DNA of 53,949 bases, from contig JAFZRU010000066.1 of assembly GCA_017619755.1 (NCBI GenBank), forward strand, positions 1-53,949, in the 5' to 3' direction. Positions 1,663 to 49,276 of the stretch are shown piece after piece. The notes beneath the pieces are model-generated. The model was given only the letters and a program-made list of their open reading frames with translations. It did not search any database and was not told where the DNA came from. The translations under genes were made by a program, and so were the position numbers. The DNA comes from Prevotella sp. GTDB taxonomy: Bacteria > Bacteroidota > Bacteroidia > Bacteroidales > Bacteroidaceae. How positions within the stretch are numbered: position 1 is the first letter of the stretch; each line of letters starts with the position of its first letter.

Positions 1663-2540
1663 TGGAAAAGACAACCTTTCAAGACATCACCCCGCGTACT
1701 TCCAAGCTCTTGGTGAACGACAATTTGTTCATCGACGATGACTTGTTGCTCTTCAGGCGTTTCGAGGATGTGCCGGTTTCCACTGACTCCCGCAAGATGA
1801 GTTGCCTCTTCGTGGCCTTGTGCTTGGAGGGAAGCGCCCAATACACCGTGGACACCAAGGTGCACCAGGTGCGCAAGAACGACTTTTTGGTGATCAACGA
1901 CGGCCAAGTGCTTAGCGACTACACGCTCAGCCCCGACTGCAAGGGCATCGCCATCATGACCTCCAACGATTTCTTCGCCGAAATCATCAAGGAGGTGTAT
2001 GAGATGTCTCAGGTGTTTCTTTTCGCCTACTCCAATCCGGTGTTCAACCTCAAGCCGGAGAAGGCGGCGACGTTCAGCGCCTATTTCAACATGATTTGCG
2101 AGAAGGTGGAAGACCGCGAACACCGCTTCCGCCGCCAATTAGCCATCTCGCTGCTCAAGGCGATGATATACGACATCGGCAACGAGATATACCAAAAACA
2201 AGCCAGTTCACCCAAGCGCACCCGCGCAGAGGTGATTTTCGGCAACTTCATCAGTTTGGTGAAGGACAATTTCCGGCATGAGCGGCGCGTCAGTTGGTAT
2301 GGCGAGCAACTATGCATCACGCCCAAGTACCTCTCCGAGACCGTGAAGCAGGTGAGCCGTCGCACGCCCAACGAGTGGATAGACTATTTTGTCATCCTTG
2401 AAATTCGTGTTTTACTCAAGAGCTCCACGCTGAGCATCAAGGAGATAGCCGAATCACTCCATTTTCCCAACCAGTCGTTTTTGGGGAAATTCTTCAAGGA
2501 GCATGTCGGTGTGTCACCTTCCAAGTATCGGCGAATGTGA
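1662..2540 (+). CDS. AraC-family transcriptional regulator
   Basis: 292 residues. Residues ~1-180 look like an AraC-type sensing domain (beta-rich, cupin-like, starting with DITPRTSKLL). Residues ~185-292 form the double helix-turn-helix, with the second helix segment LSIKEIAESLHFPNQSFLGK and the typical end VGVSPSKYRR. It should bind DNA in response to an unknown ligand. The start codon overlaps the upstream stop by one base. It converges with the GH95 gene with 6 nt between stops, so the two are not co-transcribed; whether it regulates the fucosidase is not shown by the sequence. Confidence 0.92.
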   Translation: MEKTTFQDITPRTSKLLVNDNLFIDDDLLLFRRFEDVPVSTDSRKMSCLFVALCLEGSAQYTVDTKVHQVRKNDFLVINDGQVLSDYTLSPDCKGIAIMTSNDFFAEIIKEVYEMSQVFLFAYSNPVFNLKPEKAATFSAYFNMICEKVEDREHRFRRQLAISLLKAMIYDIGNEIYQKQASSPKRTRAEVIFGNFISLVKDNFRHERRVSWYGEQLCITPKYLSETVKQVSRRTPNEWIDYFVILEIRVLLKSSTLSIKEIAESLHFPNQSFLGKFFKEHVGVSPSKYRRM

Positions 2541-2546
2541 GGTCTT

Positions 2547-4988
2547 TCAGAACTTCACCTTCGTCGTCTTTCCTTTCTTCAATTTTGCCACGACATTTCT
2601 ACTGCCGCAGGTCACCTTCACCTTGCCTTTGCGCTGACTGAAGATGGTGGCCTCCACGTGTCGGCCCCCCTCGCCCCATGCCATGTCGAGCGTGAGGCCT
2701 CCCCGTGCACGGATGCCCCGCACGTTCCCCTCGGCCCATTGGTCGGGGAGTGCCGGCAGCAGGAGCAGTTGCTCCTCGTCGCCTTGCAGCAGCATTTCAC
2801 ACACGCCAGCCGTGCCTCCGAAGTTGCCGTCGATTTGGAAAGGCGGATGGGCGTCGAAGAGGTTGGGGTAGGTGCCTCCCGAGCGTCGCCTGTCGCTCCC
2901 CTTGTAGTCGTCGGGCGAGACGTAGGTGAGCAATTTCTGGTAGATGTGGAATGCCTGTTGGGCATCGTGGAGGCGGGCCCACAAGCAGATGCGCCATCCC
3001 GTGCTCCATCCGGTGGTCTTGTCCCCCTTGATTTCCAGGCTTCTTCGTGCTGCATTAGCCAAGAGAGGCGTTTTTCCGGGGGTGATTTGGTGGCCGGGGT
3101 AGAGGCCGATGAGGTGTGACTGGTGGCGGTGTTTCGGGTCCCAGTCATCCCAGTCGAAATACCACTCGTTGATGTCGCCCTCGTGCCCTATGGTGTAGGG
3201 GCGTAGTCGTGAGAGGCTCTGCTCCACCTCCTTGAGGAATTTCTTGTCATCACCCACGATGCGTCCTGCATTCAGCGTGTTGGTGAAGAGTTCTCGGATG
3301 ATGGCCAGGTCGGCGGTGCCGCCATAGCAGGTGGTGCCATGGTATCCTTCGGTGGTTTTGTATTCATTCTCCGGCGAGGTGCTGGGGGCGGTGATGAGTT
3401 CGCCCGGCTCCCGTGGATTGTCCACAAGCCAGTCGAGGCAGAACTCGGAGGCTCCGCGCAGCAGCGGGTATGCCGTCTCCTTGAGGAATTGCTGGTCGAG
3501 GGTGTATCTGTAGTGCTCCCATAGCGCTTGGCTGAGCCACGCCCCTCCCATGTTCCAGTTGCTCCATTCCGGGCTCTCGCGCTTCTCCCCCACGGGGTTG
3601 GCCATGGCCCAGATGTCGCTGTTGTGGCTGGAGCACCATCCTCGTGTGATGCCGTAGTAGTTGCGTGCCACGTCTCGGCCGTTGCGTGCGAGGGCTTCCA
3701 TGAATCCCCATAGCGGTGTGGTCATCTCGCTGAGGTTGGCCACTTCCGCCGGCCAGTAGTTCTCTTCCAAGTTGATGTTCACCGTGTAGTTGCCTCGCCA
3801 TGGGGAGAAGCGGTGCGGTGTCCACAATCCTTGCAGGTTGGCGGGAACGGAGGGCGTGCGCGAGCAAGCGATGAGCAGGTACCGTCCGTATTGGAAATAG
3901 AGGCTTTCAAGGTATCGGCTGTCGCCACCGTTGTCGGTGTGTCGTTTCAGCAGTGCGTCGGTGGGGATGGCCGTGTCGGCAGCTTTCGGTTTTCCCAAGG
4001 TGATGCTCATCCTTGAGAACAGTTTTACGTAGTCGTCGATGTGCCGTTGCCTCAGTTCGTCGTAGCTGTAGTTGACCAAGTGCCACAAGTCGTCGTTGGT
4101 GCTTTCGATGTAAGGTGCCCCGTTGGTCACGGGATGTTGCGAGGCACCATTGAAACTCGTCTCGTTGACTATATAGACGGTCAAATCAGAGGCGCCTTTT
4201 ACTGTCAGTGTACTGTCGGAAGCAGAGATTGTGCCGCCAATAGGTTCGGCCAGCATGTAACAGCAGTAGTGAATGCTCTCATAAGAAGAACCTATGGCAT
4301 GTCCTGTCATCACCATCGACCCTTTGGGAATGAATGTCCCGCACCCGTCGAAATCTGAGCTTTTGGCGCATACGCTCTTCACCTGATGTGGTACTTGGGC
4401 AGTGAGAGATAATCGGCAATTGATGGCACCTTTTTTCTCTGCATGGATTCGGATAGCTATCACTTTGTCGGGGTTGGAGGCGAAATATTCACGAGTGTAG
4501 CGTGTGTCCCCCAGCATATAACTGTCACGACAGAAGGCACTGTCGAGGTTGAGCTCTCGACGATAGTTGATGGGAGTTTTTATGCCGTTGTCATCGATGA
4601 TATGCAATGTTCCCAAAGGCTGATAGTATTGCGAGTTGGGGCCTTGCACATGCAGCTGCAAGCTGTCGGCCAAGGCATAGTCTTCTGCAAACAGCGCCTC
4701 CCTGATTTTAGGTATCCACCGACTGGCTCCTGCGTCGAGATTCGGGTCCACCGGCTTGCCTGTCCAGAATGTGATGTCGTTGAGGTAGAGGATGTTGTCT
4801 TCCACTCCTCCATAAACGCAGGCACCTATTTTCCCGTTGCCTATGGGGAGCGACTCTTCAAAGAAGGTGGCCGGGCGGTCATACCACAGCTTCAAGGGCA
4901 GTGAGCCGGTGTCTTGCCCTGTGGCGTTGATGTTGGCACAGGTGCAAAGGATGGCCGTCACAGCCCAGGGAATGATGGCTTTTGTCAT
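2547..4988 (-). CDS. GH95 alpha-L-fucosidase, secreted
   Basis: 813 residues with an N-terminal signal-like segment (AIIPWAVTAILCTCA) and the complete GH95 fold. Family 95 enzymes are inverting alpha-1,2-L-fucosidases (some are galactosidases) that trim host glycans and plant polymers. Visible active-site motifs: NINLEENYWPAE near residue 402, corresponding to the paired Asn of the family (usually followed by TQMNYWPAE); PSTSPEN near 540 with the general acid Glu; HPPFQIDGNFGGTAG near 720 with the Asp that acts through the Asn pair. The start is 6 nt downstream of the metY-like stop, so it is probably co-transcribed with it. No SusC/SusD genes are nearby, so this is not a visible polysaccharide utilisation locus. 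Confidence 0.93.
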   Translation of the reverse strand: MTKAIIPWAVTAILCTCANINATGQDTGSLPLKLWYDRPATFFEESLPIGNGKIGACVYGGVEDNILYLNDITFWTGKPVDPNLDAGASRWIPKIREALFAEDYALADSLQLHVQGPNSQYYQPLGTLHIIDDNGIKTPINYRRELNLDSAFCRDSYMLGDTRYTREYFASNPDKVIAIRIHAEKKGAINCRLSLTAQVPHQVKSVCAKSSDFDGCGTFIPKGSMVMTGHAIGSSYESIHYCCYMLAEPIGGTISASDSTLTVKGASDLTVYIVNETSFNGASQHPVTNGAPYIESTNDDLWHLVNYSYDELRQRHIDDYVKLFSRMSITLGKPKAADTAIPTDALLKRHTDNGGDSRYLESLYFQYGRYLLIACSRTPSVPANLQGLWTPHRFSPWRGNYTVNINLEENYWPAEVANLSEMTTPLWGFMEALARNGRDVARNYYGITRGWCSSHNSDIWAMANPVGEKRESPEWSNWNMGGAWLSQALWEHYRYTLDQQFLKETAYPLLRGASEFCLDWLVDNPREPGELITAPSTSPENEYKTTEGYHGTTCYGGTADLAIIRELFTNTLNAGRIVGDDKKFLKEVEQSLSRLRPYTIGHEGDINEWYFDWDDWDPKHRHQSHLIGLYPGHQITPGKTPLLANAARRSLEIKGDKTTGWSTGWRICLWARLHDAQQAFHIYQKLLTYVSPDDYKGSDRRRSGGTYPNLFDAHPPFQIDGNFGGTAGVCEMLLQGDEEQLLLLPALPDQWAEGNVRGIRARGGLTLDMAWGEGGRHVEATIFSQRKGKVKVTCGSRNVVAKLKKGKTTKVKF

Positions 4989-4994
4989 GGGGTG

Positions 4995-6281
4995 TCATTT
5001 GATGGTGTCGAGGGCCTGGCGGAGGTCGTCGAGGATGTCTTCCACATCCTCTATGCCTACGGAGAGACGTATGAGGTCGGGAGCGACGCCGGCTTGACGG
5101 AGTTGTTCGTCGGAGAGTTGGCGGTGAGTGTGGCTGGCGGGATGCAACACGCATGTGCGTGCGTCGGCCACATGGGTGACGATGTTGACCATCTTTAGTG
5201 AGTCCATGAAGCGGATGGCTGTCTCACGGTCGCCCTTCAGGCCGAATGCTATCACGCCACAGGAGCCGTTGGGCAGGTATTTTTGTCCGAGAGCGTAGTT
5301 GGGGTTGTCTTTCAATCCGCAATAGTGCACCCATGCCACCCTGTCGTCGTTGTTCAGGAATTCCGCCACTTGCTGCGCGTTGGAGCAGTGTTGCTTCATC
5401 CTCAGATGGAGGGTCTGAAGACCCAGGTTGAGGAGGAAGGAGTTTTGTGGAGCAGGTATGCTGCCCAGGTCACGCATGAGTTGTGCCACGAGTTTGGTGG
5501 TGTATCCCATCTTTCCGAATGCCTTTACGTATGTCAGTCCGTGATAGGAGTCATCGGGGGTTGTCAGTCCGGGGAACTTGTCGGCGTGTGCCATCCAGTC
5601 GAAATTGCCGCTGTCCACCACGGCTCCTCCCACCTGTGTGGCCAGTCCGTCCATATACTTGGTGGTGGAGTGAGTCACGATGTCGGCTCCCCACTCGAAG
5701 GGCCGGCAGTTGACGGGGGTGGCGAAGGTGTTGTCCACGATGAGCGGGACGCCGTTGCGGTGGGCGATGCGTGCGAATTTCTCAATGTCGAGCACGGCGC
5801 ATCCCGGGTTGGAGATGGTTTCTCCGAAGAGAGCCTTGGTGTTGGGTCGGAAGGCCTTTTGTATTTCCTCTTCCGATGCCTCTTGTGACACGAAGGTGCA
5901 TTCGATTCCCAGCTTTTTCAATGTCACGCCGAAGAGGTTGTATGTGCCGCCATAGATTTCGTTGGAAGTCACGATGTGCCCACCGGCCTCGCAGATGTTG
6001 AAGATGGCATAGAAATTGGCCGCCTGCCCGCTGGAGGTGAGCACGCATCCCACACCACCTTCGAGGGCTGCGATTTTCGCCGCCACGGCGTCGTTGGTGG
6101 GGTTTTGCAGCCTGGTGTAGAAATAACCTTCCTTTTCCAGGTCGAACAGTTTCGCCATTTCATCGGAGTCATCATACTTGAAGGTGGTGCTTTGGATGAT
6201 GGGCAACTCTATTGGCTCTCCATTTTTCGCTTTGTAACCAGCGTGAACGCAAAGTGATGGGATTCTCATTTTCTTATCCAT
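4995..6281 (-). CDS. metY: O-acetylhomoserine sulfhydrylase / aminocarboxypropyltransferase, PLP enzyme
   Basis: 428 residues, the usual length for O-acetylhomoserine sulfhydrylase of the Cys/Met metabolism PLP family. It should make homocysteine from O-acetylhomoserine and sulfide in methionine synthesis. The PLP lysine lies in HSTTKYMDG near residue 208; YTRLQNPTNDAV near the N-terminus and SSGQAANFYA are family hallmarks. Cystathionine gamma-synthase is a possible alternative, but the length and the C-terminal end (LSVGIEDVEDILDDL) fit MetY better. A near-consensus -7 element (CAAAGTA on the plus strand, 6310-6316) lies upstream. It probably heads a two-gene transcript with the GH95 gene. 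Confidence 0.9.
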   Translation of the reverse strand: MDKKMRIPSLCVHAGYKAKNGEPIELPIIQSTTFKYDDSDEMAKLFDLEKEGYFYTRLQNPTNDAVAAKIAALEGGVGCVLTSSGQAANFYAIFNICEAGGHIVTSNEIYGGTYNLFGVTLKKLGIECTFVSQEASEEEIQKAFRPNTKALFGETISNPGCAVLDIEKFARIAHRNGVPLIVDNTFATPVNCRPFEWGADIVTHSTTKYMDGLATQVGGAVVDSGNFDWMAHADKFPGLTTPDDSYHGLTYVKAFGKMGYTTKLVAQLMRDLGSIPAPQNSFLLNLGLQTLHLRMKQHCSNAQQVAEFLNNDDRVAWVHYCGLKDNPNYALGQKYLPNGSCGVIAFGLKGDRETAIRFMDSLKMVNIVTHVADARTCVLHPASHTHRQLSDEQLRQAGVAPDLIRLSVGIEDVEDILDDLRQALDTIK

Positions 6282-31549: not shown

Positions 31550-32152
31550 TTATTGACCAAGAATAAGGCTGACAAGAGACATCACGTCGGAGATGGTGAG
31601 CGAGCCATCATGGTTCACGTCTCCCAAGAGACAGCCATGGGGGCAGTAGCCATTCTGGGTATTTGCCCCAGTGACCGTCACGTGGAAGGTGAAGTCATCA
31701 AATGTTACCTTGTTTTCATCTGGGTCGCTTAGTTTTTGGGCAATCAACTTGCCTTCCTTGTTACTTGGTTCTGCCTTTTCTGCCGCAGTCACCGTCAGTG
31801 AGATAATCTCTCCCGACGTGCCTTTCAGCAAGGTGTTGCGGTTGGAATAGCACAGGAAGTGGTAGGTGCCGTCGGGCATCAGGCTCACCTCCAAGATGTG
31901 GCGGTTGATACGGGTATCGTTCAATTCCGCCATCAAATAGCCTTCTTCATCCTTCTGAATGGAGAGGTCTTCGGGCAGAACCAAGTAAAACTCGAAAGCG
32001 ACATAGCTGTTTTCGATGCTGTTGAGTTCTATGGAGACGGTTTTCGTCTCACCGGGATTGATGGAAAAGTCGGTGATGGTGAAGTCATCGGCAAAAGCAA
32101 AACTCGCCAATGCGAGCCATGCGATGGTTATGAGATATCTTGCTGCTTTCAT
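31550..32152 (-). CDS. secreted cohesin-like protein with a single dockerin repeat
   Basis: 200 residues. Signal peptide KAARYLITIAWLALASFAFA, then a cohesin-like beta domain (~25-165; GETKTVSIELNSIENSYVAF, NRHILEV, YHFLCYSNRNTLLKG) closely related to the one in the upstream gene. It ends in one dockerin-type Ca-binding repeat, LGDVNHDGSLTISDVMSLVS, right at the C-terminus. Its ATG overlaps the upstream stop (ATGA), so it is translated from the same mRNA. The function is unknown; cell-surface adhesion or assembly is inferred. Confidence 0.8.
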   Translation of the reverse strand: MKAARYLITIAWLALASFAFADDFTITDFSINPGETKTVSIELNSIENSYVAFEFYLVLPEDLSIQKDEEGYLMAELNDTRINRHILEVSLMPDGTYHFLCYSNRNTLLKGTSGEIISLTVTAAEKAEPSNKEGKLIAQKLSDPDENKVTFDDFTFHVTVTGANTQNGYCPHGCLLGDVNHDGSLTISDVMSLVSLILGQ

Positions 32153-34929
32153 TTCACAAACACTTTTTTCCCATTGATGACATATATACCATTACGGAGA
32201 TTCTCTGTCGTGGTGACACCTTTCTTGAGCAAGGAACCATTTACAGAGTAGATATCCATAGGTGAGGAGAGATTGACATCGACCTCATTAATTCCCGTGG
32301 TTTCCGTACTGACATTTTGGAATACAACCTTGTCCTCATTGGCATCCACCAATGAGACATTTTCTACTTCAACCGTACCTTCTCCTACTACATTCAACGT
32401 CAGCATCCTGTCATTGGACGCAAATGTCGCATTGCGCATTGAATAACTCATCACGAAGTAACGGTTATCAGATAATGGCAGGATGTTCACAATATGCTCG
32501 TCGTCTGTGGTGATGCCAACAAGTTTCTGTCCTTTCGAGAGAGTGACGACAAACTGAGTGGCAACATACCGGATGCCATCAGCCAAGCTGACATTTACCA
32601 ATCCTTCCTTGTCAGTGACAAGCGAGAGTCCATAGTCAAGCTTCTCAAAACTGTTAATGGCGGGAGCAGAAGAAGCCGACTGACTCATCACAAGGCTCAC
32701 CTGACGCACAAGGTCCATCACATCGACAATGCCGTCATCATTGTGGTCTGCGGCAGCAAAGACGAAAGTTTCAGAAGGTCTTCCAATCATATAATTGACC
32801 ATCGTCACCACATCTATCACATCAATGTCTTCGTCATCGTTCACATCACCTTTCAGAACGCTGCTAACCTCAATGTCAAAGTCTATGTTAGATAGCATGA
32901 TGCGGTTCTCATTACTGTCAGAGAATTTAAGAGAACGGATATGACCTTGATAGACACCTTGCGCCACTTCCTCATCGCAGTCAACATTGAAACTTAGCAA
33001 CTCTCCATTGCTTCCTTTGATGGCGGCATTACTGTTTGAATAACACAGGAAGTAGTACAGACCATCCCCCTTGTCCGCAACCTCCAGAATATGGCGATTG
33101 GCACGTGTGCTATTGAGCGTGACATCAGGATAGCCATCCTCATCAAGTGTGATGCTGATACCTTCGGGCAACTGCATATAAAACTCAAAAGCGATCATCG
33201 TGTCCTCGTTGTCCAAACAAATGTCTATGGTAGCCTCCTTGCCTGGACGCAACATAGTATGATTGACCGCAAGTGTGTTGCGTAGGGCAGTCTCGTCGAT
33301 GATGGTCAAAATACCATTTTTGTAAGTTATGTCGTAATTGTCGGATTCTGCTCCTGAAACAGTAATGGCATAATCACCAACCGGGCTGTCTTTCGTGGCT
33401 GTAGTGGTGATGATTGGAGGTGTCTTTAATGCAGTCTCATCCTCATCATTAACAAAGCCCGAATAGGTCAAAGTCAATTCAGGATTTTCTTCTCCGACAT
33501 TCCTTGTGTAGTTGTCGGCTGTGATGATCAATGGGGCTTTTGCGATGGAAATGGGATAGGTCTCACGGATAGATTTATAGGTGTTGTCACCTAATTGTGT
33601 TGCTATGAGATTGCAAGTTCCAGCCCCTTTGATAGTCAATATGTTACCATTAATGGTCAGTATATTCTCATTGCTGGTGGTCCATTTGATGGTCAAACCT
33701 TGCTCAGTAGTGGCAGGGAGAGTGAATGAGGCATCGCCATAAGTTAAGGAAGGAGTCTCAAAGGTGATGGACTGCGATTCCGGGGGATTGAAATAGCGGA
33801 GATAGGGGTAGGATGTACCTTCGTCAATGCCCCAAACCTCATCGAAGTCCCATCCCAAGTAGGTGTAGGTTGCCTTACGCTTCAGGAGTGCATTGCCTAT
33901 GCCCTTACCATTGTTGGCATCACTACTTGTGATGGTCTGCTCACTGCCGTAGCAAATCACCTTTGTGGTGTTTAAGGAAATGTTGGATTCTGCATTGGAG
34001 TTACTACCAAGATATACTATTCTTCCATAATAACTACCTGATTTAATGGTCAAACAGCTGTTTGCGGCTACGCATTTGGAGATGGTAGATGAATAATTGC
34101 CGATGGAATAACCACATATTCCACCAACAAATTGATTTCCGCTAATAGATGCTTCTGTAAAACAACGAGTACAAGAAGATGAACGGCTTTGGCTATGAAA
34201 ATATCCCACAATACCACCACAATCATTTGATGATGATTCCAAAACACCTTTAAACAGACAATCTGAAATGTCTGAATTTGTATCATAACCAACGATTCCC
34301 CCAGAGTATAACCCAGAAGCGTTGATTGTTCCATTGGCATAACAGAAAGATATGGATGATGAAGAATAGCCAACAACACCTCCTACATATTTCCATCCTG
34401 ATACCTCCACTAACGCTTTGCATTTATTGATATCACCAGATGTATAACCACAAATGCCACCAACATAGTCACCTGTTCCCAAAATATTACCAATCACACA
34501 ACAATCGGTAATAGAAGAAGATATGCCATATCCACAAATACCACCGACATAAGAAGATCCTTGGATGACACATTCCACATTCACCCCTTTGATGGTGGAT
34601 GTTGCATACCCGAACAATCCTACATATTGGGTAGAGCGATTGATTTTCAGATTACTAATCGTATGTCCATCTCCATCAAAATCACACATAAAAGGAGCAT
34701 CAGACGAACCTATGGGTTCCCATCCTTCACCCTCGGAAAATTTAGAAAGGTCGATGTCGTTGGCCAGTTTGAACCAGAAGCCAGTTCCACCCACATAGTC
34801 ATGGACTTCATTTAAGTCGTCTGCATCATAAATCAAAAATGGGTCACTTTCGGTTCCCGACCCCGTCATCGTGGCATAGGAGAAAAGCGAGCATAGGAAC
34901 GATGCCGCTAAGAATAACAAACGTTTCAT
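32149..34929 (-). CDS. large surface protein: GLUG repeats, MBG-like, cohesin-like and dockerin domains, sorting-type tail
   Basis: 926 residues. Signal peptide (~1-20), then GLUG-type beta-helix repeats (~100-330; units such as YVGGICGYGISSSITDCCVI, YSGGIVGYDTNSDISDC). An Ig-like/MBG-type domain follows (~470-555; APLIITADNYTRNVGEENPE), then a cohesin-like domain (~560-695). A two-repeat dockerin (DVNDDEDIDVIDVV; DHNDDGIVDVMDLV) and a second beta domain precede the C-terminal tail MDIYSVNGSLLKKGV...GIYVINGKKVFVK, typical of proteins exported by the type IX route or a related one in Prevotella. Codon use is more A/T-rich than in neighbouring housekeeping genes. It sits behind a long structured leader and is followed by the overlapping cohesin-like gene. 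Confidence 0.82.
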   Translation of the reverse strand: MKRLLFLAASFLCSLFSYATMTGSGTESDPFLIYDADDLNEVHDYVGGTGFWFKLANDIDLSKFSEGEGWEPIGSSDAPFMCDFDGDGHTISNLKINRSTQYVGLFGYATSTIKGVNVECVIQGSSYVGGICGYGISSSITDCCVIGNILGTGDYVGGICGYTSGDINKCKALVEVSGWKYVGGVVGYSSSSISFCYANGTINASGLYSGGIVGYDTNSDISDCLFKGVLESSSNDCGGIVGYFHSQSRSSSCTRCFTEASISGNQFVGGICGYSIGNYSSTISKCVAANSCLTIKSGSYYGRIVYLGSNSNAESNISLNTTKVICYGSEQTITSSDANNGKGIGNALLKRKATYTYLGWDFDEVWGIDEGTSYPYLRYFNPPESQSITFETPSLTYGDASFTLPATTEQGLTIKWTTSNENILTINGNILTIKGAGTCNLIATQLGDNTYKSIRETYPISIAKAPLIITADNYTRNVGEENPELTLTYSGFVNDEDETALKTPPIITTTATKDSPVGDYAITVSGAESDNYDITYKNGILTIIDETALRNTLAVNHTMLRPGKEATIDICLDNEDTMIAFEFYMQLPEGISITLDEDGYPDVTLNSTRANRHILEVADKGDGLYYFLCYSNSNAAIKGSNGELLSFNVDCDEEVAQGVYQGHIRSLKFSDSNENRIMLSNIDFDIEVSSVLKGDVNDDEDIDVIDVVTMVNYMIGRPSETFVFAAADHNDDGIVDVMDLVRQVSLVMSQSASSAPAINSFEKLDYGLSLVTDKEGLVNVSLADGIRYVATQFVVTLSKGQKLVGITTDDEHIVNILPLSDNRYFVMSYSMRNATFASNDRMLTLNVVGEGTVEVENVSLVDANEDKVVFQNVSTETTGINEVDVNLSSPMDIYSVNGSLLKKGVTTTENLRNGIYVINGKKVFVK

Positions 34930-46026: not shown

Positions 46027-49000
46027 CTATTTTATCACTTTCTTTCCACCGATGATGTAAATCCCCTTCTTCAACATTGAAGGATTGCCGACACCCAACC
46101 GGCGGCCTTGCAGGTCGTAAATCGCCTTGTCGTTTGTCATTTCCGCTTGGTGATTTGGCGTGGCATACAAGTCTGTGGTGACCTCGCCCGTGTATTGTCC
46201 CATGAAGAGGATGACACCCGTGGATTGCTCGCTGATGATGTAGAGGAACGGGCGGTTGGCATGGAAGGTGGCTTGGTCGGGCATGGCTGTTGTATCATAG
46301 CCGATGATGGTGACGGCGGCGGCCTCAGTGCCCTCCTCGTTGACGTCAATCTTGGCCACCTGCTTCATCGTGCCAATGTAAATGTTCTCCCCGAAATCAT
46401 CCACGCAGAGTTTTGAGAAGTCGGCTTCGAAGGGACTGAAAGCCGTGGGCATGCCCAACGCCGACATGATTTCTTTCAGGTTGATGTTGGTGCTGGTTCC
46501 AAAGCGTGGCAACTTCAAGTCCACTTCGTAGAGGGAGAGGTGAGCCGTGAGAAGTGAGGGTTGGGAGGAGAGGCTTTCCAAGAGTTCCTCGAGCGTCTTT
46601 CCCTCCTGCGGCAGGAACACCTGCATGCGGTAGGTGCCGTTGCCGTATGGAAGGACGACGGTCTGGTAAAGGTCGTTCTCGGCATACGACAGTTCCACGT
46701 TCTCCAAGTGCATCATCGGCACGGGGGCGTCCCCGTCGAAAGGTTCCTCTTTCGTGTTCGCGACATTGAACGGACTGCTCCACATCCCCTTGAAGTAGAT
46801 GGCGTTGAGCAGATAGCTCACTGCCAAGGGGTTGAACTCCGGCTCACTGAGCACCTCCTGGATCATGCCCTTCGTGTGGTCGCTGGCCCATTGGTTGATG
46901 ACGTCGCGTGTCTTGCCGTCTCCGAAGTCACGGCTTTGAGGATCAGCAAAATAATAGTTTCGTGCTACGTGGTCGAAGTCGGGTTGCAATTGATAGCCCA
47001 TTCCCTGGTTGACGAAGATGGTGTTGGCGATATTGGCCTTTGTCGTGACATCCACCCATCCCGTCGTGAGCAGTTCGAGCATCATTTTTTGACAGAACTC
47101 GTTTTGTGCACCGACATCACCGAAGCCCAGAACGTTGCAAATTTCCTGCTGCGTTTTTCCGGCCGCACCGTTGTTGGCCATGCCAAGGGCGTAGGTGATG
47201 CTCAGCGGGGAGAGCAGCATGGAGGGTTGGGAATTGGGATTGGAACTTTGGGATTTTCTCGCCTCGCGGAACAGTCGGAAGGCGAAGTCGTTGTTGTTCT
47301 GCACCAACTGCCTCTCTTCTTTCGTCAACTCTATGTATGTGGGTGCGCGGAAGTCGGCAGCCGTGAAGTAGAAGCCTCCGCTCGAAACATATTCAAACGA
47401 CTCATAGTCACAGATGCAGTCGGGCTCCTCCCCGAAGGCATAGTGTATCAGACCTTTCCCCTCAATGCCCACGCCCTCGACGCCAATCAAATTCATCCAG
47501 TGATAGCGTTGGAGCAGTTGTCCGTTGACGTTGATGACGTCAGGCTTCTCCATATATTTTGGTCCGGGATAGTTGGAGCAGGTGACGTCGCAGAGCATGA
47601 AGTCCTGCTTGTCGCCCATCAGGTCGTACTGCCACACGCAGCCCTCTTCGTCTTCGCGGAAGGCTCCGTAGTATTTGCTTCCCCTCAGGTAATCGTAGCG
47701 GTACATCTTCACATAGTTCCGCCCGTTGATGATGGTGTCGCCCTTGATGTAGTATCTCACCTCGTAGATGGTCTCGTTGTAGAAGTCCTCGGGGTAATTG
47801 TCGCCGGTAGGCTCCGCTTTGTCCTCAAAATGGTGATAGATGTAATTCCACGCCTTCCCCTGCACGAGCATGGGCTTCAGCGGTTTGTTCTTCACAGGTT
47901 CGCCCATGTACTGGCCGATGAAGAAGATGCTGCCCGTGGAGCGTTCGCTGATGATGTAGAGGAAGGGGCGGTTGGCAATGAACTCTGCAGCTTTTGGCAT
48001 GATTTTGTCACTCACCGCAACGACAGTGGCGGCAGCGGCTTCCGTGCCTTTTTCGTCAAGCTTCAGATGGGCTTTCTGGCGCATCATACTGATCCAGCAT
48101 TGGTCAGAGTCCTCCTCGTTGTCCCCCAAATAGCAGAAATCCATGAAGCCGTGGCCGTCGTATTTCAAGAAGGCGTTTTTCATGCCCATCGAGGCCATGA
48201 CCTCCACCAGGTCTTGTTCCGTGTCTGTCTCTATGCGTGGCATGCTGAGCGTTACATAGCGGCTCTCGTAATTGGCCTCGTTCCAGTTTTTGCCGTTCAT
48301 GGCGGCCAGCACGTCGTCGAGCGTGTGTCCTTTTTGCGGCAGGAAGAGTGTCATCTGGTAGGAACCGTTGCCGTATGGCAATATGACGCTCTGATAGAGG
48401 TCGGTCTCGGCATAGCGGAACTCGCTTATCTGCGACATCATCATGGCGGTTCGCTTGCCGTCGTCGAAAGAGGCGTTCACGGTGGCCCGCTCGTCAAAGG
48501 GACTGACCCACGACCCCTTGAAACAGATGGCATTCAGCAGGAAACTCACTAAGTTGGGGTTCTCCATGTCCTGTGGTTTCAGCAGGTCACGTATCATGCC
48601 ATTGGTTTTGTCGCTCACCCACTGGTTGATGATGCCCAATGACGCCTCGTCGCTGAAGCTGAGGATGGAGGGTGTGGCGTCATAGTAGGTAGCCGCGGCT
48701 TCTTTGAATGCTGATTTCAGCGACACGTCCTTCCGGTCGCCATTGAAGTAGATGGTGTTGGCAATGGCCACGCGAGTGTCCTCGTCGAGCAGGGCGCTCT
48801 CCGTGAGCATCTTGCGGCAAAAGGCGTTCATGGTCGCCACATCGGCAAATCCCGTCTGCTTTCCTCCAGAGAGAACCTGGCATATCTCCTCTCGCGTGAT
48901 GCCTTCGGCTCCGTTGTTGAGCATGCCGAGGGCGTATGTGATGCTCAGTGGCGAGATGACATGGTTCTCCGTGTCGCGTGTCTTGCGGAACAGGTTCATA

Positions 49001-49134
49001 GCGAAGTCACTGTTCTGCTCCACCAGCGTGCGCTCCGATTCGGTCAACACGATGGTCTTTGGCTCTCCATCTTGGGCTAATGTATTCAATGCCACTAATA
49101 TGGAGCATAGTATCAGAGTAAACTTTTTCATCAT
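46027..49134 (-). CDS. secreted protein with two serpin domains
   Basis: 1035 residues from ATG 49134. Signal peptide KKFTLILCSILVALNTLAQ; serpin 1 (~25-412); a middle domain (~415-598); serpin 2 (~600-990); C-terminal tail AIYDLQGRRLGVG...KGIYIIGGKKVIK. Both serpins open alike (TESERTLVEQNSDFAMNLFR and TKEERQLVQNNNDFAFRLFR) and both have the small-residue hinge of inhibitory serpins: EKGTEAAAAT and EEGTEAAAVT. Counting 17 residues from the hinge Glu puts P1-P1' at Lys377-Ile378 and Thr949-Ala950, so different target proteases are predicted. The middle domain (KGDTIINGRNYVKMYRYDY, YYGAFREDEEG) resembles the protein at 53060. The gene has its own promoter. Confidence 0.88.
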   Translation of the reverse strand: MMKKFTLILCSILVALNTLAQDGEPKTIVLTESERTLVEQNSDFAMNLFRKTRDTENHVISPLSITYALGMLNNGAEGITREEICQVLSGGKQTGFADVATMNAFCRKMLTESALLDEDTRVAIANTIYFNGDRKDVSLKSAFKEAAATYYDATPSILSFSDEASLGIINQWVSDKTNGMIRDLLKPQDMENPNLVSFLLNAICFKGSWVSPFDERATVNASFDDGKRTAMMMSQISEFRYAETDLYQSVILPYGNGSYQMTLFLPQKGHTLDDVLAAMNGKNWNEANYESRYVTLSMPRIETDTEQDLVEVMASMGMKNAFLKYDGHGFMDFCYLGDNEEDSDQCWISMMRQKAHLKLDEKGTEAAAATVVAVSDKIMPKAAEFIANRPFLYIISERSTGSIFFIGQYMGEPVKNKPLKPMLVQGKAWNYIYHHFEDKAEPTGDNYPEDFYNETIYEVRYYIKGDTIINGRNYVKMYRYDYLRGSKYYGAFREDEEGCVWQYDLMGDKQDFMLCDVTCSNYPGPKYMEKPDVINVNGQLLQRYHWMNLIGVEGVGIEGKGLIHYAFGEEPDCICDYESFEYVSSGGFYFTAADFRAPTYIELTKEERQLVQNNNDFAFRLFREARKSQSSNPNSQPSMLLSPLSITYALGMANNGAAGKTQQEICNVLGFGDVGAQNEFCQKMMLELLTTGWVDVTTKANIANTIFVNQGMGYQLQPDFDHVARNYYFADPQSRDFGDGKTRDVINQWASDHTKGMIQEVLSEPEFNPLAVSYLLNAIYFKGMWSSPFNVANTKEEPFDGDAPVPMMHLENVELSYAENDLYQTVVLPYGNGTYRMQVFLPQEGKTLEELLESLSSQPSLLTAHLSLYEVDLKLPRFGTSTNINLKEIMSALGMPTAFSPFEADFSKLCVDDFGENIYIGTMKQVAKIDVNEEGTEAAAVTIIGYDTTAMPDQATFHANRPFLYIISEQSTGVILFMGQYTGEVTTDLYATPNHQAEMTNDKAIYDLQGRRLGVGNPSMLKKGIYIIGGKKVIK

Positions 49135-49245: not shown

Positions 49246-49276
49246 GCAGAGTAGTGCAAGGCGAGTGAAATGCAAA
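49246..49276 (-). promoter_or_regulatory. decayed copy of the repeated-spacer promoter
   Basis: Minus strand: TTTG, spacer CATTTCACTCGCCTTGCAC (19 nt), then TACTCTGC in place of TAnnTTTG. Probably inactive. Confidence 0.6.

Follow-up and report, generated by a model that had tools for sequence, protein, structure and literature searches.

A two-headed serpin of mosaic ancestry in Prevotella and its multi-headed relatives

Results

Domain organization of the window serpin

The stretch of DNA analyzed here, referred to as the window, comprises 53,949 nucleotides of a Prevotella sp. genome (GenBank assembly GCA_017619755.1, contig JAFZRU010000066.1) and encodes, at positions 46027 to 49134, a protein with two serpin domains, which we call head 1 and head 2. 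The gene begins with an ATG at 49134, its stop codon ends at 46027, and the 1035 residues are read from a single open frame. The mechanically called open reading frame (ORF) extends upstream to a TTG at 49275; judged by eye, signal-peptide-like residues come after the ATG at 49134. The parts of the gene are as follows.

46027..49134, minus strand: whole serpin gene, 1035 residues plus stop (signal peptide, head 1, linker domain, head 2, C-terminal tail)
49072..49134, minus strand: signal-peptide-like start, residues 1-21, judged by eye; no canonical lipobox seen
47905..49059, minus strand: serpin head 1, residues 26-410 (Pfam, genome search, domain scan, clade position)
47980..48054, minus strand: hinge and reactive loop of head 1, P17 Glu361 to P8' Phe385; loop-count P1 Lys377 at 48004-48006
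47344..47904, minus strand: linker domain, residues 411-597 (187 residues), without Pfam match; in other genes, the N-terminal part of stand-alone linker-serpin proteins
46189..47343, minus strand: serpin head 2, residues 598-982 (Pfam, genome search, domain scan, clade position)
46264..46338, minus strand: hinge and reactive loop of head 2, P17 Glu933 to P8' Phe957; loop-count P1 Thr949 at 46288-46290
46030..46188, minus strand: C-terminal tail, residues 983-1035 (53 residues), DLQGRR...KGIYIIGGKKVIK

The initial annotation of this locus had proposed two inhibitory-type serpin domains on one polypeptide, and this description holds. Pfam family PF00079 matches the protein in two stretches (E 5.9e-173 for the whole protein). 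In the genome search, head 1 was matched at 47905-49017 with 306.2 bits over profile positions 2-367 of 370, and head 2 at 46192-47298 with 275.9 bits over positions 2-368, against a curated cut-off of 27. Both heads are therefore full-length members of the serpin superfamily. The window genome, a 3.7 Mb draft in 67 contigs that is 85.88% complete and carries the window on contig 15, encodes five serpin domains across four frames, and only the window frame holds two. A structure model of the full-length protein was computed from an alignment of 18 rows, a first alignment (A1, 30 rows) being too gappy to be used for folding. When this low-confidence model was searched against the PDB, the 50 matches listed were all serpins, many of them cleaved or latent, with a template modeling score to the target of ∼0.5.

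Hinges, reactive loops, and predicted P1 residues

The hinges named in the initial annotation were both recovered, EKGTEAAAAT in head 1 (P17 at residue 361) and EEGTEAAAVT in head 2 (P17 at residue 933). Passages of a survey of prokaryotic serpins give the inhibitory hinge motif as ExGTEAAAA (PMC8233489). Both heads have an inhibitory-type hinge at P17-P9 and a 17-residue loop to P1; head 1 fits the motif exactly, whereas the P9 residue of head 2 is Val. Counting from the hinge places P1 at Lys377 (P1' Ile378) in head 1 and at Thr949 (P1' Ala950) in head 2, as had been predicted. The count agrees with an alignment of the heads to a solved conserpin that carries the antitrypsin loop, in which Lys377 and Thr949 align with the conserpin Met, presumably the P1 of antitrypsin.

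The best solved sequence match of head 1 is miropin (E 1.1e-47; PDB 5ncs and other entries), a single-domain serpin of Tannerella forsythia. Miropin has a hinge of the same kind as the two window heads and, like head 2, a Thr at the loop-count P1; its solved chain is one-headed, with neither a linker domain nor a second serpin. In the alignment with head 1, the residue at P2 of miropin is Lys. The title of one miropin structure in the PDB describes it as trypsin-induced, which would imply a cut after this Lys, one residue before the counted P1. Ksiazek in 2015 reportedly described miropin as using different peptide bonds. Because the loop count and the implied trypsin cut differ in miropin, head 1 may be cut at Asp376 or at Lys377, and protease classes are not assignable from sequence. 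The earlier proposal of one trypsin-like and one elastase-like arm thus stands in so far as different loop-count baits are carried on one probably exported chain, while the protease classes themselves are only suggested by the loop count.

Ancestry of the two heads

The openings of the two heads are alike, which had been taken as a sign of duplication, and both heads fall within one broad serpin clade. Over their whole length, however, they are only 47% identical (174 of 372 aligned positions), and dozens of other domains are closer to either head. In a ranking of 113 domains in which the query itself takes first place, head 2 comes 49th when head 1 is the query, and head 1 comes 55th when head 2 is. 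The two are therefore not mutual nearest relatives, as the products of an internal tandem duplication would be. A quick domain tree, computed without bootstrap for 89 of the 113 domains, places the heads in separate clades, each with a Shimodaira-Hasegawa-like approximate likelihood ratio test (SH-aLRT) value of 100. The head-1 clade has 16 rows, namely ten first heads of tandem proteins, four heads labeled as single, the head of locus L057, and window head 1. The head-2 clade has four rows, namely two linker-serpin genes, the third head of a triple protein, and window head 2. Of the four heads labeled as single, that of L060 comes from a gene that is truncated at a contig end and runs on in the manner of a tandem gene. 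Given the low identity and the number of closer relatives, we conclude that the two heads represent a fusion of diverged lineages and, for this sample of domains, reject a local duplication within the window gene.

The remainder of the protein is consistent with this conclusion. Head 2 together with the preceding 187-residue domain, which the initial annotation had not mentioned, matches stand-alone linker-serpin genes. The nearest counterpart of the window tail is found in the single serpin L067, and the head of L067 groups with head 1 in one small clade. By sequence, then, the window protein is a head-1 lineage and tail combined with a linker-serpin unit. The linker domain (residues 411-597), which matches no Pfam family, immediately precedes a serpin in the triple protein and in 27 further proteins from the genus, and its family occurs in 84 of 398 genus genomes at E up to 1e-6. 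Members have a conserved Cys-x-Cys near the domain end; weaker relatives occur in many further frames, and the one inspected is without a serpin. The linker model is all-beta at low confidence (predicted local distance difference test, pLDDT, 62.8), with no structural match in the PDB at E 0.001 or below, and the only sequence match among solved chains has an E of 0.6. One linker-serpin of 935 residues (L143, 490-3294) is extended at its N-terminus by ∼335 residues without any Pfam match.

The junction between head 1 and the linker was found a second time, in L057 (5869-7632), which belongs to a metagenome-assembled genome (MAG) with another accession and is 85% identical in DNA over 1.8 kb; its frame changes inside head 1, and the contig ends in the linker. 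In L059, a linker-serpin frame (1765-3678) neighbors a direct tandem frame (3666-6218), and the triple protein looks like a direct tandem gene followed by a linker-serpin unit.

Multi-headed serpins in the genus and the phylum

A search for other double-serpin proteins, suggested in the initial annotation, was productive. A domain scan of the loci revealed direct tandems, linker-serpins, singles, the window form, and one three-headed protein; after merging at 95% identity, 17 distinct multi-serpin proteins were counted, including the window protein and the three-headed one. Within this small family, second heads and bait residues vary from one species to another. A profile of the direct tandem junction was matched near its full length in 15 of the 398 genus genomes. 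In the window genome the match is limited to the first half of this profile, because the second head follows the linker, and in one further genome (G355) it is truncated by a contig end. A multi-serpin chain is thus present in at least 16 of the 398 genomes; in a first look at the genus, 82 of 150 genomes had a serpin. The 17 closest loci (L056-L072) carry the names Prevotella, Prevotellaceae, or Bacteroidaceae, with a ruminant animal given for nine and only codes for eight.

In a phylum-wide draw, a serpin was present in 73 of 395 genomes. Among the serpin frames listed for these 395 genomes, none besides the window's 1089-residue frame fits two heads, the longest other being 719 residues. 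This draw scored four candidates at most in each genome, whereby one window domain was missed; among the genomes listed, G000, G422, G504, G608, and G646 had more than four. Absence outside the genus thus holds within the limits of this capped draw. The statement that tandem serpins are rare suits the phylum-wide draw, and it has to be qualified for the genus, where the arrangement recurs.

Other serpin fusions occur in the genus. A DUF4419 domain precedes the serpin in L041, L043, and L044, carboxypeptidase-regulatory-like matches are found in the fusions L041, L042, and L044, and the serpin of L050 has an N-terminal domain without identity.

Among the listed matches of a literature search for tandem, multi-domain, or double-headed serpins, seen in part, there was no bacterial two- or three-headed case. 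Passages of a report on insects describe 45 genes with several serpin domains, with a mean of 2.33 domains, and attribute them to domain duplication (PMC10513286). The window gene is like these in having several serpin domains in one gene, and unlike them it is not eukaryotic; the passages name neither a linker-serpin fusion nor a bacterial sorting tail. Group T of the prokaryotic serpins includes Prevotella serpins and close relatives of miropin, according to passages of PMC8233489, and none of the terms looked for, such as tandem, multidomain, duplication, or fusion, occurs in its main text.

Bait residues and loop variability across the family

The loop-count P1 and P2 residues were tallied across 18 of 27 rows that remained after identical copies were dropped, L064 and L071 (99.6% identical) both being retained. 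Without correction for kinship among the 18 chains, a charged residue occupies P1 in 9 of 18 first heads, compared with 0 of 19 later heads (Fisher 0.0004). Asp at P2 is likewise confined to first heads, where it occurs in 13 of 18. With that qualification, we regard the contrast in bait between first and later heads as a feature of the family.

In the 16-row head-1 clade, mean divergence is 0.06 in the hinge (P17-P9), 0.23 in the body, and 0.57 in the loop (P7-P4'), and 4 of 374 sliding windows are as variable as the reactive loop. The corresponding hinge, body, and loop values are 0.07, 0.40, and 0.58 in the head-2 clade and 0.09, 0.25, and 0.45 in one clade of second heads. The ratio of nonsynonymous to synonymous substitution rates (dN/dS) in the head-1 clade rises from 0.02 in the hinge and 0.10 in the body to 0.36 in the loop. 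We do not claim positive selection, because dS is near saturation and the loop ratio is below 1.

The two retained near-copies are informative at single residues. L064 and L071 are tandem proteins of 846 residues each that differ at three residues only; one difference is at P3 and one exactly at P1 of head 1, Glu in one protein and Lys in the other. By simple post hoc arithmetic, the chance that two of three changes fall inside one 15-residue loop is ∼0.001. The near-invariance of the hinge, the hypervariability of the loop in the head-1 clade, and this P1 swap argue for working inhibitors.

Similarity of head ends within tandem proteins

A 23-codon DNA block at the ends of heads 1 and 2 was compared in 12 of the 15 distinct direct tandem proteins (without L110, L113, and L115), with kinship uncorrected. 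Identity within a tandem protein was 0.826, compared with 0.775 between proteins, a difference reached in 1 of 5000 permutations. The head-end block could be used in 9 of the 12 proteins and the control blocks in 6 to 12, as a pattern failed to match twice in the remaining proteins. No within-protein excess was seen in the hinge or in three of the other four control blocks. The complete singles L062, L067, and L072 have a tandem-type tail directly after head 1, and their heads group within a clade of first heads from tandem proteins. These data would fit recombination between head ends of similar sequence, by which a second head is lost or exchanged.

Export and the C-terminal tail

Tails of the DLQGRR type were matched at 31 places in the window genome at E up to 0.1, the window gene included, and the complete tail pattern before the stop was recognized in 13 of 30 fetched tail loci. 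The genome encodes the type IX secretion system (T9SS) translocon SprA (2563.6 bits) and the T9SS sortase (860.6 bits, or 996.3 with its neighbor). The curated NCBIfam T9SS tail model TIGR04183 has no match in the window protein; elsewhere in the genome it is matched at 20 places at E up to 0.01, and 13 of these exceed the cut-off. The earlier reading of the C-terminus as a sorting tail is thus favored by the encoded secretion machinery and not by the curated model, and surface display of the protein is plausible.

Serpins bearing a dockerin occur in cellulosomes. A likeness to these is seen in L001 and L003 of the window genome and in L056 and L059, which are the triple protein and one tandem; all four end in Dockerin_1. 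No C-terminal Dockerin_1 was found by Pfam in the window protein, which ends in DLQGRR...GKKVIK instead. Since related serpins bear either Dockerin_1 or a DLQGRR-type tail, the two C-terminal kinds seem interchangeable. Elsewhere in the window (32149-34929), a 926-residue protein has MBG_2, GLUG, and Dockerin_1 domains together with a weak match to the DLQGRR-type tail.

Gene neighborhood

The window gene is flanked on one side by a divergent D-Ala-D-Ala carboxypeptidase gene (S13). On the other side are a gene with a weak nucleoside deoxyribosyltransferase match (26.5 bits, cut-off 28.8), a small ORF that matches nothing, and the topoisomerase IV subunit A gene. When nine window neighbors were sought in the loci of relatives, none of these flanking genes was recovered, and the only result was a partial match in L033 to a distant ORF of the window. 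Downstream sequence is common to some of the tandem loci, and the single L072 has ∼300 base pairs of it.

In six tandem loci (L038, L063, L068, L069, L113, and L115), tblastn places a C13 (legumain-like) peptidase gene next after the serpin; Pfam Peptidase_C13 was checked in L063 and L068 and found in both. In L038, L063, L068, and L069, the loci that extend far enough, this gene is followed by a gene for a secreted protein without known identity and then by an extracytoplasmic function (ECF)-like sigma gene. Such sigma genes, named by eye, lie near several tandem and linker-serpin genes. Pieces of a C13 gene follow the single serpin L072, and a C13 match lies beside L050. The window has neither a C13 peptidase gene nor an ECF-like sigma gene, and the sole C13 match in the window genome is an 809-residue frame on another contig. 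The idea that Asp at P2 of head 1 serves the neighboring C13 peptidase is weakened, as this Asp is absent in two of the six C13-linked proteins (L068 and L069).

Discussion

The window gene is real and unusual and, judging by its sequence, probably a functional two-headed serpin. Our favored interpretation, which we consider likely, is that it encodes an exported, probably surface-anchored two-headed suicide inhibitor assembled from two diverged serpin lineages. Each head would present its own reactive loop to proteases, and a protease that cuts a loop would be trapped as the loop inserts into the central sheet of that head; both heads might be used simultaneously. Head 1 would derive from the lineage to which the first heads of tandem serpins belong. 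A unit of linker plus serpin, originating in stand-alone genes, would have been inserted before a tail that resembles the tail of a relative of head 1, with recombination between similar serpin head ends as the likely route of assembly.

Several results weigh against this interpretation or parts of it. Confidence in the full-length structure model is low (pLDDT 53.5). The loop is less conspicuous in two other clades: in the head-2 clade 64 of 374 sliding windows match its variability, and in one clade of second heads 35 of 365 do so. In the head-1 clade, the loop dN/dS remains below 1 at a dS of 1.2-1.4. The curated tail model passes over the window protein, as described above, and the domain tree carries a long-branch warning for other rows. 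Finally, the SPLS control block near the N-terminus also has a weak within-protein excess (186 of 5000 permutations, kinship uncorrected).

Four other explanations were weighed. One or both heads could be non-inhibitory, serving instead as decoys that proteases simply cleave or as modules with a structural or binding role. Relatives often have Gly, Ser, or Asn at the loop-count P1, none of them an obvious bait, and the low confidence of the structure model points the same way. We nevertheless think this unlikely, as the hinge is near-invariant in three clades (divergence 0.06-0.09) and fits the inhibitory motif from PMC8233489, exactly in head 1 and with the Val at P9 in head 2.

Alternatively, the heads could restrain a secreted peptidase of the bacterium itself and so protect their maker rather than act on outside proteases. 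The C13 gene next to the serpin in six tandem loci favors this. It is absent from the window, however, and its sole match in the genome lies on another contig; Asp at P2, possibly suited to an enzyme cutting at Asp or Asn, is missing in the C13-linked L068 and L069; and L036, L039, L059, L064, L065, L066, L070, and L071 have no C13 match in the locus DNA examined. Own-protease control thus appears about as improbable as non-inhibitory heads.

Simple internal duplication of one serpin domain would account for the shared broad clade and the similar openings, and in this sample it is very improbable in view of the identity, ranks, and separate supported clades given above and of a linker domain that also occurs in genes of its own. 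A chimeric assembly that joined two serpin genes, which similar serpin ends in an incomplete draft of 67 contigs could produce, is scarcely credible, since the head 1-linker junction recurs in L057 under another MAG accession and the junction between linker and head 2 is seen again in the triple protein and in 27 linker-serpin proteins.

The fusion origin, the recurring multi-headed family, and the P1 swap go beyond the two-domain observation that began this analysis. If the heads work as our favored interpretation holds, one bacterial surface protein could trap two protease classes at once, and the natural variants would be a ready-made set for how the bait residue of a serpin sets its target; the L064/L071 pair separates a P1 change from nearly everything else. 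More tentatively, and as a possibility that we would not yet call probable, rumen-type Prevotella may keep an evolvable array of multi-headed serpins in which recombination at the head ends removes, swaps, and adds heads, bait class differs between first and later heads, and baits toggle between near-identical proteins. Such behavior would be expected of a surface inhibitor engaged in an arms race with changing proteases.

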